NCBI RefSeq assembly: GCF_008369915.1
Contig: NZ_VSRN01000001.1
Coordinates: 2,662,501-2,726,500, forward strand
Length of the DNA: 64,000 nt
From: Dyadobacter sp. UC 10
GTDB lineage: Bacteria; Bacteroidota; Bacteroidia; Cytophagales; Spirosomataceae
Direction: 5' to 3'
Shown: positions 25,786-60,836 of the stretch, one piece after another
How positions within the stretch are numbered: the first letter of the stretch is position 1
Layout of the letters: each line of letters begins with the position of its first letter
Translations under genes and position numbers: made by a program
Notes under the pieces: generated by a model
Told to the model about the DNA's origin: nothing
Database searches by the model: none
The model's input: only the letters and a program-made list of their open reading frames with translations

Positions 25786-26028
25786 CTAGAGAATCGCTTC
25801 TGCCAATACAAGTACTTTGTTATTAAGCACTTCCACGACGCCTCCGTCAATTACATAAGACTGTTTTGCAGCTCCTGTATCGATCACCACATCGCCCTTT
25901 CCAAGTGTACTCACAAGTGGCGCGTGGCGGTTCAGAACCTGAAATTGTCCTTCCGTACCCGGTAATGTCACAGCATTCGCCTCGCCGGCAAACACTTTCT
26001 TATCTGGGGTAATTATTTCTAAATGCAT
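25786..26028 (-). CDS. atpC: F1Fo ATP synthase subunit epsilon, short form
   Basis: 80 residues covering only the N-terminal beta-sandwich domain (MHLEIITPDKKVFAGEA, LPGTEGQFQVLNRHAPLVSTLGKG). The C-terminal helical hairpin that inhibits hydrolysis in E. coli epsilon is absent. Short epsilon is usual in Bacteroidota. It forms part of the central stalk and couples rotor to catalytic head. It follows atpD by 79 nt, and the leader directly before its ATG consists of four 7-nt repeats. The other ATP synthase genes are not in this window. Confidence 0.94.
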   Translation of the reverse strand: MHLEIITPDKKVFAGEANAVTLPGTEGQFQVLNRHAPLVSTLGKGDVVIDTGAAKQSYVIDGGVVEVLNNKVLVLAEAIL

Positions 26029-26038
26029 CTGTTCGACG

Positions 26039-26066
26039 TTTAGCTGTTAGCTTTTAGCTGTTAGCT
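26039..26066 (-). repeat. Heptamer array in the atpC leader
   Basis: A 14-mer is exactly duplicated (26039-26052, 26053-26066), and each copy is two 7-mers. Read in the sense of atpC the array is AGCTAAC AGCTAAA, twice. It ends 10 nt before the atpC ATG. The same 7-nt period and consensus recur at 47205-47232 and 59715-59763. Confidence 0.85.
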
Positions 26067-42512: not shown

Positions 42513-45500
42513 TTAGAATCCTTCTGTTGGCTCTTCTTTTTTCTTCTTTTGCGCTGCCGGTGCGCTCACCGGCTTCTTCTTCGTTGTGCTCTTTACAAGC
42601 TTTGCTTTTTTGATAGCAGGCTGATAAAAATCATCAAACCGGTTCACAAACATATCCTTCTCTTCCGACCCGATTGACACCAATGTCATGTCTTTCGATT
42701 TCACATTTTTAGACTTCGCGGTGATCTGATCATTGAAATCAAGCTGGGAAGAAACCACTCCGAGCTCACCCAGTTTGTAATCGATGTAATACCAGATATC
42801 CGGCGAAGCCTGCAAGTACAAGCTGAATTCATCACCTTCTACACCTCTGCGGATTTCGAGTACACCTTCCATCTGCGCATTAATATTGTTCCGGCCAAAA
42901 TGCGCCACACCGATCGGCCCCTGCGAATAGTAAGCCTGGTGCGTAGGCGACCAGTGCAGATTCACATTGGACAAAACCATCGGAACATCCAGCATAGGGG
43001 AAGCGTCAAAAAGCGGCTTGTAACCCGCAGCAGTCAGTTTGGCATAAGCATCTGTTGCTTTCGGGCCGATTAATGCAGACAATTTTTGATTAAGTTGCTC
43101 AAAATCGTCGTCGGCTGCCGTACTATTCTGCTCTTCCAGGTTCGTTTCCACGATTTTCGCCGCCATTGGCTGGGCGATGGGTTCAAGCGCTGGCATCTTA
43201 AGCAGCAGCATGCTATTAAAGGAATATTTGGCACTATCGACCTGCACTTCCGCACTTCCGACAGATTGAAGCCAATCTGCACCAATGAATTTAAATGGCC
43301 CGGAGAATGTCGCCAGACCGGTTTTATCATCGAAACGCAATGCATTCGCTTCATCGATAAGCCCGTCGGCGCCTGGTGGCGGGGTTACTTTAAATGCTTT
43401 GTTATCCTCGTCATAATTCAATGCACCCTGTGCCAGGTAAATGTCTTCGTCACCGTCAGACTCTTTTGGTGATAAAAAGCTCATGTACATTCCGCGCGCC
43501 TCATTGTAATGCAAGCCGACAGAAAGCGGGATCTCGTGCTCGTTTTTCAGGTCTTTGTTGATTTTAATAGCAACAGTTTCGCCTGGCGACTCCTTATATA
43601 CGATCCACGAGCTCTGAAAATCCTTCCTGAATTTGATAACAGGTTTTACAAAACCGTCCAGTTGCAGCGAAGGCTCGTAGGCGATAAGGTTAATGCCGCC
43701 CTTAAATTGAATGCGCGGCGAAAGGATCAGATTCTCCTCTTCTTTTACGTCAGCCCGCGCGGTAGTATAGTATTTAACCGGACCTGACTGATTGTTATTT
43801 CTGGAACGTTTCCCTTCTTCGCCAGCCCCGATTTCTCTCAACTCAAAATTCTGCATTTTGATGTTGAAAGTATCCTTGCGCGCTGTAATGTATTGATAAG
43901 TAGCAGAACCTTCGAAATGGTTGCGGGAATCAATACGGATATCGGCATCGCGGAGGCGGTGAGCTACATTCAGTGTGTCAATTTCAATGCGCGCCTTTTT
44001 CAGCGGGGCAATCTTACCTTTGCTATCTACACTCACCAAACCTTTGTCCGGGATAATTTTAACGTCGGCGGTTTGTATAAAAGGCACTCCTTTGATATTG
44101 AGGGACACTTTTTCAATGTCATAAAGGGCTTCAGTACCGCTGAAAGTCAGACCTTCCTGCGTAGAATCTGTGGAAGTGTAGGTTGAAGTTTCGCCTATCC
44201 CTTTCATTAAAATCGTCTTCTTATTCATATCCCACTTCGCACTGCCGATCAGCGTTTGATAGGAAGCGGTGGGGATCTGCATACCCGAAGTATCGCTACC
44301 AAAGCCCGATTCGTCGGTCAGAAAATTAGCAATGCCGGTTTTGAAATTGAAATCAATATTGACATTGTTACCCGTCAGCAGCTTTTTGGCAGACTTGGTT
44401 TCGTTGCTATTGATTGCAAACTCTGAACGATTGGCCAGAAATCCGTCCTTATTGAATTTGATATCCGGCGAAGTCAGCTCAGAATCAGCCCTTTTCAGCT
44501 TACCATTTCCATAAAGTCCGGTTGATCTCAGCAGCAAACTTCCTTCGAGATTGGTAGTACCCTGGTGGAAAGCGAATGATTTGCCGGTTGTATTGATGAA
44601 CATACTATCTGCATTCGGGTACCACTTCAATGCAAAATCCTTCAAAGCCACTGCGGGAAAATATCCTTTTCCTATTGTGGCTTCCTTAATACTAGCCACT
44701 TCGCCGGATGCCATTAGAGAATCGGAAGTAAGCAGCACATTTTTTGCTGTCATCGTGGCTGAAAGGTATTTCAGGACCGCTTTTGAATGCAAACCTGAAT
44801 TGTCCATGGTAAGCGTGTCGGTAAATTTGGCCAGTGCTTTTCCCTCATAAAGCTTGATATCCGTCACTGGGGGCTTGTATTCGAAACCGAGCGAATTGTC
44901 CGGCATGCTTTTCAGGATCGTCTGAATCGGCGGAATAATACCATTGGAGTTGAAGGTTCCGTCAAAAATCACATCGCGATTGTCGAGACCGTCCATATCG
45001 ATTTTTGGAATCTTAAAGAATACTTCTCTGGGATAAATAACAGTACCTCGCTCAGGCTGGTCGAAAAATACGGTCATACCATCTTCTACAACCAATCGCG
45101 GGGACTTTTTCACCCCTTTCTGCAAGCCCGACTTGTTTTTAGGATCACTCAGATAAAAGGTACCTCCCTTGTCATATTTCACGTGCCCGCCCACTTCGCC
45201 TTTTTGCCCTTTTGCAAATTTTTCTCTCGGTGTAAATGTGATAGAGTCCGAAGGAGCCACATTTACAAAAAACTGATTATAGTCAAATTTGATATTCTGC
45301 CCGCGAAACTGATAGTTGGAGGCGACCATTTGACCATTTAATGTAAAATTTCGATTCTTGCCAATGATCAGCTTTTTGTCAGAAGGTATCGCGTATATTT
45401 TTAATGAGTCACTTACCACAAACCGGGAAACTCCTAATACAGTAAGCAGTGTATCAGGCATATAGATGGTGGCATTGGCAGTTTGATTGTCGGAAGTATA

Positions 45501-47195
45501 TTGTGACGCAACCTGGAAATTGTCGTAGTCAGCCCTGTCCAAATTAGCCATCACGAACAGGACGCCTTTTTTACTCAATGCAAATTCGTCGGTTTCCTTA
45601 TTATACATAAAGTAACCGTCCAAAGTGAGGCGGTCCAGTGCGTTGCGCAGGATCTTTGGATTTTGCTTGAACTTTGCTGCCAGTTCTTCGGCCAGAAAGG
45701 AAGATTTTTTAGTAGCCTGCACGTGGTTCGCCGCCATATTCAAAGGCTGAAAACCAAACTCCTTCGCTATCTCTCTGAAACGTTCTTTTTTGAAAAAATC
45801 CTGAGACTCAAGCGTTACCGGCACAACCTGCTTTCCATCAATGCGATGGAATTCCAGTTTATCGTTGGTAAACCGCCACCGCATGGCCTGTGACCAGATA
45901 TTCATTTTGTGATAACTATCCTGGTAGGGCAGGGGAGCGTAGTCCGTTTTCTCCATCCGGCTCGTTTTCACCAAACCTTCATCGTCATTATATTTAAATA
46001 CAACACCCTGATGGTAAATAGAATCGCTGCCGAGGGGCATAGAGTAGGTCGCAAAGGAAGACGAAATCACGGAGTCGCGCAATGCAAACTTCTTGCTCCG
46101 CGCCGTAAAAGCGACCTTATCCTTGTATTTGACCTTGACTGTGGAAAGCTGATCGCTGAGCGACGTGCTGTACATATCCGTCCCAATCAGCGAAAAGCCG
46201 CCCAGATAATCAATGCTCTTTCTGGTATCTTTTAGTCTCGCATCGATTCCATTAGAAACAAAACGCGGGTACGGTGCGGGCTGGCCTTTCACTTTTTTTA
46301 CGCCCCGGTATTCCAGCGTTCCTTTAATGGGAGCTGCCAGTTGCTGATGATGCAAAGTCACATGCTCAGCAATAATCTTCGGCTGGGTGGTATTGAAAGA
46401 ATAGCTGTCGAGATCCGCATAAATAGATGAATCACCTGCGGCGAGCCAGTCGAACTTGCCGTTTTTCCCAACAAAAATTCCGTTTTGCAACGAAACACTT
46501 CCATTTGCCGGACCGAAAACGACCGAATCGCTGGCTGTAACCATCGCGAATCGCGCATTTTGCAGGTCGATCAATGCGCCGGAAACAACCGGTAACGGAT
46601 TTGACTTAGGCGCGATTACAAAATTCGTGTCAACAGGCGTATCCCAACTGTCGTTGGCTGCGGCGATATTGGCTTCTGCATTAGCTTTTTCTGCATTGGT
46701 AGTGTCAAACCGGTAGTTGTAAGTTCCTTCAAGCAGGTAAAGCGAATTGTAATTCGCGGAATACAGCTTTTTGTTCTCATTCAAAAGCCTGACGGTTTCC
46801 ATTACTTTTTGCAATGTTTTTCCATCATACTTTTCACCTGAACTTGCAGCCAGATTCAGAAAACTATCGAATCCCTGTGGATTTTGCTTCGCGAAATAAG
46901 TTGCATTCCGCGTCAGAATGTACAGAACCGGCCCGGCTTTCTGTCCTTTTGCGACCTGCGTTTTGACAATACCGGTAAATTTCATCTGCTGCGCCGTATT
47001 AAATGAAGACATCCAGATGCTGTCCAGCTGCGCTGCTGCGCGCATATATTGCGGATTACGGCTTCCGTCCATCAGTTTTTTAAATTGCACCATAAACTGG
47101 GTCGGTTCGTCGGCCAGTTTCAGGTTTTGGGCGGATGTATTTTTTCCGATAAAAAAGAGGCAGTACAGAAGGAAAGTATATCGTATTATTTTCAT
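42513..47195 (-). CDS. Very large secreted protein of unknown function
   Basis: 1,560 residues with a signal peptide (LLYCLFFIGKNTSAQ). The first 200 residues are helical. The rest is long runs of short beta-strands with repeated D-S-x and T-x-x-K patterns, suggesting an elongated beta structure like AsmA-, LptA- or TamB-type periplasmic bridges, though no family motif is certain. The C-terminus is lysine- and proline-rich. I recognise it only as a conserved kind of Bacteroidota hypothetical. A heptamer array ends 9 nt before its ATG. The gap to prmA upstream is 52 nt, so cotranscription with prmA is possible. Confidence 0.75.
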   Translation of the reverse strand: MKIIRYTFLLYCLFFIGKNTSAQNLKLADEPTQFMVQFKKLMDGSRNPQYMRAAAQLDSIWMSSFNTAQQMKFTGIVKTQVAKGQKAGPVLYILTRNATYFAKQNPQGFDSFLNLAASSGEKYDGKTLQKVMETVRLLNENKKLYSANYNSLYLLEGTYNYRFDTTNAEKANAEANIAAANDSWDTPVDTNFVIAPKSNPLPVVSGALIDLQNARFAMVTASDSVVFGPANGSVSLQNGIFVGKNGKFDWLAAGDSSIYADLDSYSFNTTQPKIIAEHVTLHHQQLAAPIKGTLEYRGVKKVKGQPAPYPRFVSNGIDARLKDTRKSIDYLGGFSLIGTDMYSTSLSDQLSTVKVKYKDKVAFTARSKKFALRDSVISSSFATYSMPLGSDSIYHQGVVFKYNDDEGLVKTSRMEKTDYAPLPYQDSYHKMNIWSQAMRWRFTNDKLEFHRIDGKQVVPVTLESQDFFKKERFREIAKEFGFQPLNMAANHVQATKKSSFLAEELAAKFKQNPKILRNALDRLTLDGYFMYNKETDEFALSKKGVLFVMANLDRADYDNFQVASQYTSDNQTANATIYMPDTLLTVLGVSRFVVSDSLKIYAIPSDKKLIIGKNRNFTLNGQMVASNYQFRGQNIKFDYNQFFVNVAPSDSITFTPREKFAKGQKGEVGGHVKYDKGGTFYLSDPKNKSGLQKGVKKSPRLVVEDGMTVFFDQPERGTVIYPREVFFKIPKIDMDGLDNRDVIFDGTFNSNGIIPPIQTILKSMPDNSLGFEYKPPVTDIKLYEGKALAKFTDTLTMDNSGLHSKAVLKYLSATMTAKNVLLTSDSLMASGEVASIKEATIGKGYFPAVALKDFALKWYPNADSMFINTTGKSFAFHQGTTNLEGSLLLRSTGLYGNGKLKRADSELTSPDIKFNKDGFLANRSEFAINSNETKSAKKLLTGNNVNIDFNFKTGIANFLTDESGFGSDTSGMQIPTASYQTLIGSAKWDMNKKTILMKGIGETSTYTSTDSTQEGLTFSGTEALYDIEKVSLNIKGVPFIQTADVKIIPDKGLVSVDSKGKIAPLKKARIEIDTLNVAHRLRDADIRIDSRNHFEGSATYQYITARKDTFNIKMQNFELREIGAGEEGKRSRNNNQSGPVKYYTTARADVKEEENLILSPRIQFKGGINLIAYEPSLQLDGFVKPVIKFRKDFQSSWIVYKESPGETVAIKINKDLKNEHEIPLSVGLHYNEARGMYMSFLSPKESDGDEDIYLAQGALNYDEDNKAFKVTPPPGADGLIDEANALRFDDKTGLATFSGPFKFIGADWLQSVGSAEVQVDSAKYSFNSMLLLKMPALEPIAQPMAAKIVETNLEEQNSTAADDDFEQLNQKLSALIGPKATDAYAKLTAAGYKPLFDASPMLDVPMVLSNVNLHWSPTHQAYYSQGPIGVAHFGRNNINAQMEGVLEIRRGVEGDEFSLYLQASPDIWYYIDYKLGELGVVSSQLDFNDQITAKSKNVKSKDMTLVSIGSEEKDMFVNRFDDFYQPAIKKAKLVKSTTKKKPVSAPAAQKKKKEEPTEGF

Positions 47196-47204
47196 TTCGT
47201 TGAT

Positions 47205-47232
47205 ATTGGCTTTCAGCGGTTAGCTATTGGCT
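47205..47232 (-). repeat. Heptamer array in the leader of the 1,560-residue protein gene
   Basis: Read in the sense of the gene: AGCCAAT AGCTAAC CGCTGAA AGCCAAT, four 7-mers without gaps, ending 9 nt before the ATG at 47195. Same period, consensus and orientation as the arrays before atpC and the 59769 gene. Confidence 0.8.
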
Positions 47233-59664: not shown

Positions 59665-59698
59665 AAAGCCTCATAGGTGTTATCCTGTGAGGCTTTTG
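59665..59698 (+). terminator. Terminator of the aminotransferase gene
   Basis: 13-bp stem with one wobble pair (AAAGCCTCATAGG at 59665-59677, CCTGTGAGGCTTT at 59684-59696), a 6-nt loop and a T run. Confidence 0.87.
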
Positions 59699-59714: not shown

Positions 59715-59763
59715 AACTAAAAGCCAACCGCTAAAAGCTAATAGCAAAAGGCTAACAGCCAAT
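59715..59763 (+). repeat. Heptamer array in the leader of the 2Fe-2S reductase gene
   Basis: Seven gapless 7-mers in the sense of the gene: AACTAAA, AGCCAAC, CGCTAAA, AGCTAAT, AGCAAAA, GGCTAAC, AGCCAAT. The array ends 5 nt before the ATG at 59769. It shares period, consensus and orientation with the arrays before atpC and the 1,560-residue protein gene. Confidence 0.85.
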
Positions 59764-59768
59764 AAACA

Positions 59769-60836
59769 ATGAGCAAGCACTATTTTTTAAAGGTTAAAGA
59801 AGTTGAAAAGGAAACGGACGAGGCAGCTACAATTCACTTTTGGCACCCTCTGAATGAGGTTGTTGCCTACCGGCCAGGGCAATTTCTTACTTTGCTCCTG
59901 CCAATGGAAGATGGTACCAAGCTGCGCAGGTCCTATTCTATGTCGAGCTCGCCTTATACGGATGTTTCGCTCGCGATTACGGTGAAGCGTATTCCCGGCG
60001 GATTTGTATCTAATATGTTGCTGGATACCATTAAGGAAGGTGATATCCTGGAAGCAGTAGAGCCAATGGGTTCATTTTTTCCAAAACAGGAGGATGATCA
60101 GGTCAGACAGGTAGTGTTCGTTGGGGCCGGAAGTGGCATAACTCCTTTGTTTTCAATATTAAAATCGATTTTAATTGTAGAACCAGAGAGTGAAGTGTTC
60201 CTGATTTACGGGAGCCGAAATGAGGATTCTATCATTTTCAACAATAAAATTACTGCGTTAAAAGAGAAATATGGCGATCGCTTTCAGGTTGTTCACACTT
60301 TGAGCCAACCCTCCGAAGGCTGGTCTGGCGAAACGGGCAGGCTGAATAAAACGCATATCCTCAAAATTCTTGGCCAGCTCGGTGACCTGAATGCAAGTGA
60401 GGCCGAGTATTATCTGTGCGGGCCTGAAGATATGATCGATGAAGCCAAACGTGCAATGTCGATTCTGGGGGTGCCGGATCAGAAGGTTAGGAGAGAAAGC
60501 TTTGCAACCGCTTCATCCACGCAGCCCGGAGAAGTAATTGTAGCTGAGGATGATACCTACAAAACAAGAGAAGTCACCATTTTTTACGAAGGTACCGAAT
60601 ACAAAGTCCCAGTTCAGGCGCACGAAACTGTACTGGAAGCTGCTTTAAATATGGATATCGACTTGCCTTATTCTTGTCAGGCGGGCATGTGCACTGCCTG
60701 CATGGGCCGCTGCGTTTCCGGAAAAGTGCAAATGGATGAAGATGAGGGGCTGACGCAGGGAGAAAAAGATGCCGGCTTTATCCTGACCTGCGTCACCCGC
60801 CCATTAACTGACGATGTAATTCTGGAAGTAGAATAG
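59769..60836 (+). CDS. NAD(P)H-dependent flavin and 2Fe-2S reductase (PaaE-like)
   Basis: 355 residues in three parts: an FAD domain (RRSYSMSSSPY), an NAD(P) domain (VGAGSGITPLFSILKS, then YYLCGPEDMIDEAK) and a C-terminal plant-type 2Fe-2S ferredoxin (YSCQAGMCTACMG with C-x4-C-x2-C, then the last cysteine in LTCVTRP). The layout is that of PaaE and related oxygenase reductases, but no oxygenase gene is near, so the electron acceptor is unknown. A heptamer array forms its leader, right before the start codon. Confidence 0.92.
   Translation: MSKHYFLKVKEVEKETDEAATIHFWHPLNEVVAYRPGQFLTLLLPMEDGTKLRRSYSMSSSPYTDVSLAITVKRIPGGFVSNMLLDTIKEGDILEAVEPMGSFFPKQEDDQVRQVVFVGAGSGITPLFSILKSILIVEPESEVFLIYGSRNEDSIIFNNKITALKEKYGDRFQVVHTLSQPSEGWSGETGRLNKTHILKILGQLGDLNASEAEYYLCGPEDMIDEAKRAMSILGVPDQKVRRESFATASSTQPGEVIVAEDDTYKTREVTIFYEGTEYKVPVQAHETVLEAALNMDIDLPYSCQAGMCTACMGRCVSGKVQMDEDEGLTQGEKDAGFILTCVTRPLTDDVILEVE

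Follow-up and report, generated by a model that had tools for sequence, protein, structure and literature searches.

Heptamer arrays in the reductase leader and at two companion genes

The window analyzed here, a 64,000-nucleotide stretch of the genome of Dyadobacter sp. UC 10, holds a tandem array of degenerate heptamers in the leader of a reductase gene and two shorter arrays of the same unit in front of atpC and of a long open reading frame (ORF). The features are as follows.

59665 to 59697, plus strand: terminator-like hairpin with a T-run, belonging to the upstream aminotransferase gene
59715 to 59763, plus strand: array of 7 AGCYAAN heptamers that forms a lone start-side arm in the reductase leader
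59769 to 60836, plus strand: flavin/NAD/2Fe-2S oxidoreductase (FAD_binding_6, NAD_binding_1, Fer2), 3' of the reductase array
26039 to 26066, minus strand: AGCYAAN array of 4 perfect heptamers in the atpD/atpC spacer, a single start-side arm
25786 to 26028, minus strand: atpC (ATP synthase epsilon), downstream of the 26039 array
47205 to 47232, minus strand: AGCYAAN array of 4 units (3 perfect and 1 poor), a single start-side arm
42513 to 47195, minus strand: 1560-aa ORF with a signal-peptide-like start and no Pfam match at threshold, downstream of the 47205 array

The description of the reductase array as seven gapless heptamers of consensus AGCYAAN is borne out by the sequence (AACTAAA, AGCCAAC, CGCTAAA, AGCTAAT, AGCAAAA, GGCTAAC and AGCCAAT, read on the plus strand); three of the seven units are exact and four carry one mismatch. 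The array ends 5 nt 5' of the ATG at 59769, and the A at position -3 of the start lies outside it. The hairpin sits between the aminotransferase stop codon and the array, in a place conserved across most of the genus, and the spacer has no stop-side arm. The companion arrays stand 10 nt (atpC) and 9 nt (1560-aa ORF) from the start codons of their genes, and all three loci do agree in period, consensus and orientation, each reading AGCYAAN towards a start codon. Since the window holds three single start-side arms, a pattern of ribosome-binding regions was what the original prediction saw, with slippage in the array as a possible way of tuning translation of the downstream gene.

Such arrays are far from chance. 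The whole genome (6.9 Mb) contains 291 exact three-unit AGCYAAN matches (133 + 158, a count that includes overlapping matches inside long arrays) and not one match to the backward-read control pattern. In the window itself, 60 first-order Markov versions yielded three such arrays in total, compared with three in the real sequence.

Arrays point outward from intergenic spacers

To place the arrays relative to genes, we sampled the window and 34 array-containing stretches of 20 kb each (0.68 Mb), 744 kb in all; the stretches were chosen for holding arrays but without regard to start codons, and genes were called by our own hexamer model, so that gene starts are predictions. This sample contains 85 arrays (a reversed-sequence control gave 0), of which 84 lie in intergenic spacers, and 80 of these 84 face out of the spacer, in the direction of the closest gene end (binomial p of about 2e-19). 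The same orientation is seen for 37 of 38 arrays in the relative G020. On the sense strand, the arrays therefore read AGCYAAN before starts and NTTRGCT after stops, and they are similarly frequent at the two. Stop-side arms in tandem spacers lie at a median distance of 2 nt behind the stop codon, whose TAG is often supplied by the TTAGCT of the arm itself. Start-side arms lie at a median of 17 nt from the ATG; many end at 4 to 13 nt, and several are 50 to 200 nt away (maximum, 202 nt). Between convergent genes, where two stops face each other with no start codon near, seven of seven arrays obey the outward rule. The one array inside a predicted gene (L299:9938-10036; 14 units) is near that gene's 5' end, and the start of the gene may be wrongly placed.

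Arrays are carried by 43 of 388 tandem, 4 of 73 convergent and 3 of 81 divergent spacers. Among the tandem spacers, 25 are bounded by an arm on either side, a further two hold two inverted arms and one forward arm (--+), and 16 have a single arm; across all gene configurations, the inverted -+ pair occurs in 30 spacers and --+ in two more. Array-free spacers lean weakly in the same direction, with C over G before starts and G over C after stops. This survey upholds one half of the expectation, namely that the arrays form a genome-wide family whose orientation is strict rather than random, and corrects the other: the arrays are not bound to positions before starts, and the true rule is that they face outward from the spacer.

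Can the arrays nonetheless be ribosome-binding regions whose slippage adjusts translation? In favor of this idea, start-side arms do point to the start and frequently end within reach of it, and the leader length of the reductase gene differs by 21 nt between two relatives (see below). However, arrays are equally regular after stop codons, in the reverse sense and in convergent spacers as well; because they follow stops as often as they precede starts, they are not ribosome-binding sites. In addition, it is the stop-side arms that are placed more tightly, some start-side arms are far from any start, some species have no array at the same gene, and the A at -3 of the reductase gene is supplied by sequence beyond the repeat. 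The AGCYAAN unit contains no GGAGG-like stretch of the Shine-Dalgarno type, and Bacteroidota do not use Shine-Dalgarno sequences, initiation being favored instead by open, A-rich leaders (PMC6847099). A Shine-Dalgarno type site was accordingly rejected, as there is no anti-Shine-Dalgarno complementarity and placement is not limited to starts. A ribosome-binding role is untenable as a general explanation, and we regard it as highly improbable that it accounts for the array at the reductase gene.

Unit, core and predicted hairpin

Five positions of the heptamer are nearly constant (A1, about 0.88; G2, 0.95; C3, 0.995; A5, 0.97; A6, 0.97), and the other two differ freely between units, with C or T at position 4 and A, C or T, but hardly ever G, at position 7. 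Most arrays are mixtures of units, and some consist of as many as 14 nearly perfect units in a row. Paired arms enclose an AT-rich core of 19 to 144 nt (median, 67 nt), and the 33 cores compared with each other by blastn share no sequence similarity. The sense RNA of the 25 paired tandem spacers is predicted to fold with a mean z of -5.6, and in the predicted folds arm-arm pairing covers 78% of the shorter arm. Pairing is no stronger within a spacer than between arms exchanged among spacers, which indicates that it reflects the shared consensus and not locus-specific compensation; in this comparison of same-spacer and swapped arms, we saw no selection at the level of base pairs.

Several other candidates were considered and discarded. 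Copying of one arm, in mirror image, to make the other does not apply, as two arms from the same spacer resemble each other no more closely than shuffled arms do. A mobile element with a conserved body is not supported, given that none of the 33 cores matches another. A promoter in every core finds no support either, the motif TAnnTTTG being not enriched (1 seen versus 0.96 expected) and marginal after the right arm. With respect to terminator replacement, terminator-like hairpins built from Watson-Crick pairs only are present in 3 of the 25 paired spacers and in 22 of the 138 tandem spacers that lack arrays, which is no difference; allowing G-U pairs gives an excess in array spacers because the stop-side arms themselves supply the hairpins.

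One array spacer (L127:9952-10542) has its core duplicated in tandem, in two nearly identical copies of about 80 nt, each flanked by heptamer arrays, as is expected from recombination between arrays.

Copy number and unit change among relatives

AGCYAAN arrays are patchy in the genus, being found in 23 of 36 other species, and arrays of four units occur in 19 of 395 genomes across the phylum (our own genome included). Outside the phylum, the loci include Pseudanabaena, a cyanobacterium, in which one spacer is laid out identically, with one arm 2 nt behind the stop codon, then a core, then a second arm 10 nt short of the following ATG. Some other matches, from binned metagenomes, may be misplaced.

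Shared arrays seldom have the same length. The reductase leader carries eight units in G006 and five in G020 and is otherwise nearly identical in the two; the expectation that leader length changes in 7-nt steps holds, insofar as copy number differs by whole units between close relatives. The array in front of the 1560-aa ORF is also present in the orthologous spacer of both of these relatives. In comparison with G020, array presence is common to 11 of 14 array-bearing orthologous spacers, with 54 spacers empty in both genomes (the stretches compared were partly chosen for arrays, so that the odds of shared presence are biased), and copy numbers nearly always differ. In some species the array is missing at the reductase gene or at atpC, or another repeat takes its place; across the genus, the atpD-atpC spacer is nearly empty (20 to 32 nt), has a single AGCYAAN arm or holds an inverted pair of octamers resembling ACTCATAA, the latter in several relatives.

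The unit itself is also exchanged. In G036 and G066, two other close species, several of the orthologous spacers have outward arms of AGCCGAN instead, and one spacer reads AGCYTAN in our genome (G000), AGCYAAN in G020 and AGCCGAN in G036 and G066. Over whole genomes, three-unit AGCYGAN matches number 0 in G000, 0 in G006, 35 in G036 and 53 in G066, and three-unit AGCYAAN matches number 291 in G000, 98 in G006 and 60 in G036; the backward-read control is meaningless for AGCCGAN, which reads identically backwards. Over longer distances the unit is swapped in both arms, for AGCYGAN or for an octamer, and in all 58 classified paired spacers from five genomes, both outer arms belong to the same repeat family.

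Comparison with known repeat systems

A literature search for the AGCYAAN unit itself found nothing relevant, and the best-supported class is that of the G-rich heptamer arrays described by Rehm et al. in 2015, GGGANTN in Xanthomonas and GGGGAYT in Nostoc (PMC4692102). Those arrays keep one strand near the 5' neighboring ORF whatever the ORF direction, form inverted pairs and are transcribed; the placement geometry has thus been known since 2015, and it is the unit that differs. Like them, the arrays studied here are degenerate intergenic heptamers with free positions and frequent inverted pairs, obey a strand rule (80 of 84 arrays, and 37 of 38 in G020), favor co-directional and convergent over divergent spacers, and occupy spacers that are mostly common to relatives and variable in length. 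Unlike them, they belong to another phylum, their unit changes, in both arms, from one related species to another, and neither AGCYAAN nor NTTRGCT has a G-tract of three, as read from the sequence. AGCYAAN therefore cannot form quadruplexes, and the quadruplex idea put forward for the earlier arrays does not explain the geometry in general.

The original prediction knew of no described family of this kind in Bacteroidota. A further relative of the arrays is formed by the TAACTGA direct repeats, reported from Beggiatoaceae, cyanobacteria and five Bacteroidetes (MacGregor 2015, PMC4679880). These too are intergenic heptamer arrays a few nucleotides before starts, with no Shine-Dalgarno sequence. 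In contrast to AGCYAAN, however, they have a different and nearly fixed unit and are mostly start-side (12 of 170 sets point to stops), and paired outward arms are not described for them.

The nearest functional analogue, we think, is the REP element, a transcribed repeat beside the stop codon (PMC3733652). REP/BIME sequences of the GTAG/CGTC families resemble the arrays in being inverted repeats between co-directional and convergent genes, near stop codons or supplying them, with frequent G-U pairing, and they are thought to act as transcribed RNA. They differ in having a GTAG or CGTC tag and a compact palindrome, whereas the arms described here are tandem heptamers around a non-conserved core; the array spacers that we read contain no GTAG- or CGTC-tagged palindrome of 20 to 40 nt.

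A proposed boundary element of intergenic spacers

We propose, with moderate confidence, that the reductase array forms one arm of a repeat element, REP/BIME-like in character, at the boundaries of spacers, and that it is a tolerated leader arm and not a ribosome-recognition sequence. By analogy with REP, the AGCYAAN arrays as a whole would be a slippage-prone boundary element with a putative role, a Bacteroidota counterpart of the Xanthomonas and Nostoc arrays that may behave in a REP/BIME-like way. In this model, the arrays would be transcribed; where both arms are present, read-through RNA could fold, 3' of the upstream stop codon, into a hairpin that is long and slippery, and RNA started inside the spacer would carry only an A/C-rich, G-poor and weakly structured leader that ribosomes tolerate. 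Orientation would be fixed because only the outward arrangement leaves the leader open, which fits the need for open, G-poor leaders in Bacteroidota (PMC6847099). We count against the proposal that arms of the same spacer show no excess complementarity, that 16 tandem spacers have a single arm, that the cores share neither sequence nor an enriched promoter motif, and that the strong constancy of A1, G2, C3, A5 and A6, beside a free Y4 and N7, is accounted for by neither slippage alone nor pairing.

In a rival account, polymerase slippage expands short repeats in unneeded spacer, orientation comes only from selection against G-rich or structured leaders, and the arrays have no function of their own. 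Fast change in copy number and content, the essential atp operon whose spacers carry or lack arrays, the existence of single arms, the want of locus-specific arm pairing and the unrelatedness of the adjoining genes all agree with neutral filler of this kind. Slippage and mutation would, however, let all seven positions drift, yet five are 87 to 99.5% constant genome-wide; a change of family always involves both arms of a spacer; and the orientation rule holds between two stop codons too. We consider this account somewhat unlikely.

A unit with five constant and two free positions, alike in Bacteroidota and a cyanobacterium, would be natural if the heptamer were the site of a sequence-specific RNA- or DNA-binding protein, arrays being multivalent and the family switching with the protein's specificity, and the concerted replacement of the unit over several orthologous spacers agrees with this. 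The candidate binder is hypothetical, however, and the coexistence of several repeat families in one genome means that several proteins would be needed, which leaves the idea quite unlikely. A further and very doubtful proposal is that a trans-acting process writes or homogenizes the unit over many spacers, so that a change in its specificity would convert AGCYAAN to AGCYGAN in concert, in the two arms of orthologous spacers alike; this would be somewhat like the alteration of all telomeres by a changed telomerase template. Read 5' to 3', the G/T-rich strand leads away from each gene end.

A clear positional rule now takes the place of the supposed ribosome-binding curiosity, one that recurs in a cyanobacterium and, with unrelated units, in the published Xanthomonas and Nostoc arrays. 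Among close relatives, orthologous spacers whose two arms have both taken on a new unit offer a natural series for asking how bacterial genomes create and homogenize intergenic repeats.

Other inverted repeats in the spacers

Our genome has further inverted degenerate spacer repeats (GGAGGAA/CCTCCTT, TTGTCATTGG and GAATGAGT). The spacer at L136:10152-10290 and its orthologs (L310, L311, L312 and L313) have different inverted repeats in five species, which comprise AGCYAAN arms, CTCCTGAGGAGC-type hairpins, ACTCATAA octamers and AGCCGAN arms. A G006 spacer (L143:13800-14022) holds degenerate inverted arrays of period 10 (TTGTCATTGG / ACCAATGACA), and similar ones are found at L134:5582-5798. Lastly, the L310, L311 and L313 spacers orthologous to L136:12693-12774 carry a TGTCACCCTGAGCGCAGTCGAAGGG / CCCTTCGACTGCGCTCAGGGTGACA inverted repeat that is REP-like and distinct from the heptamers.
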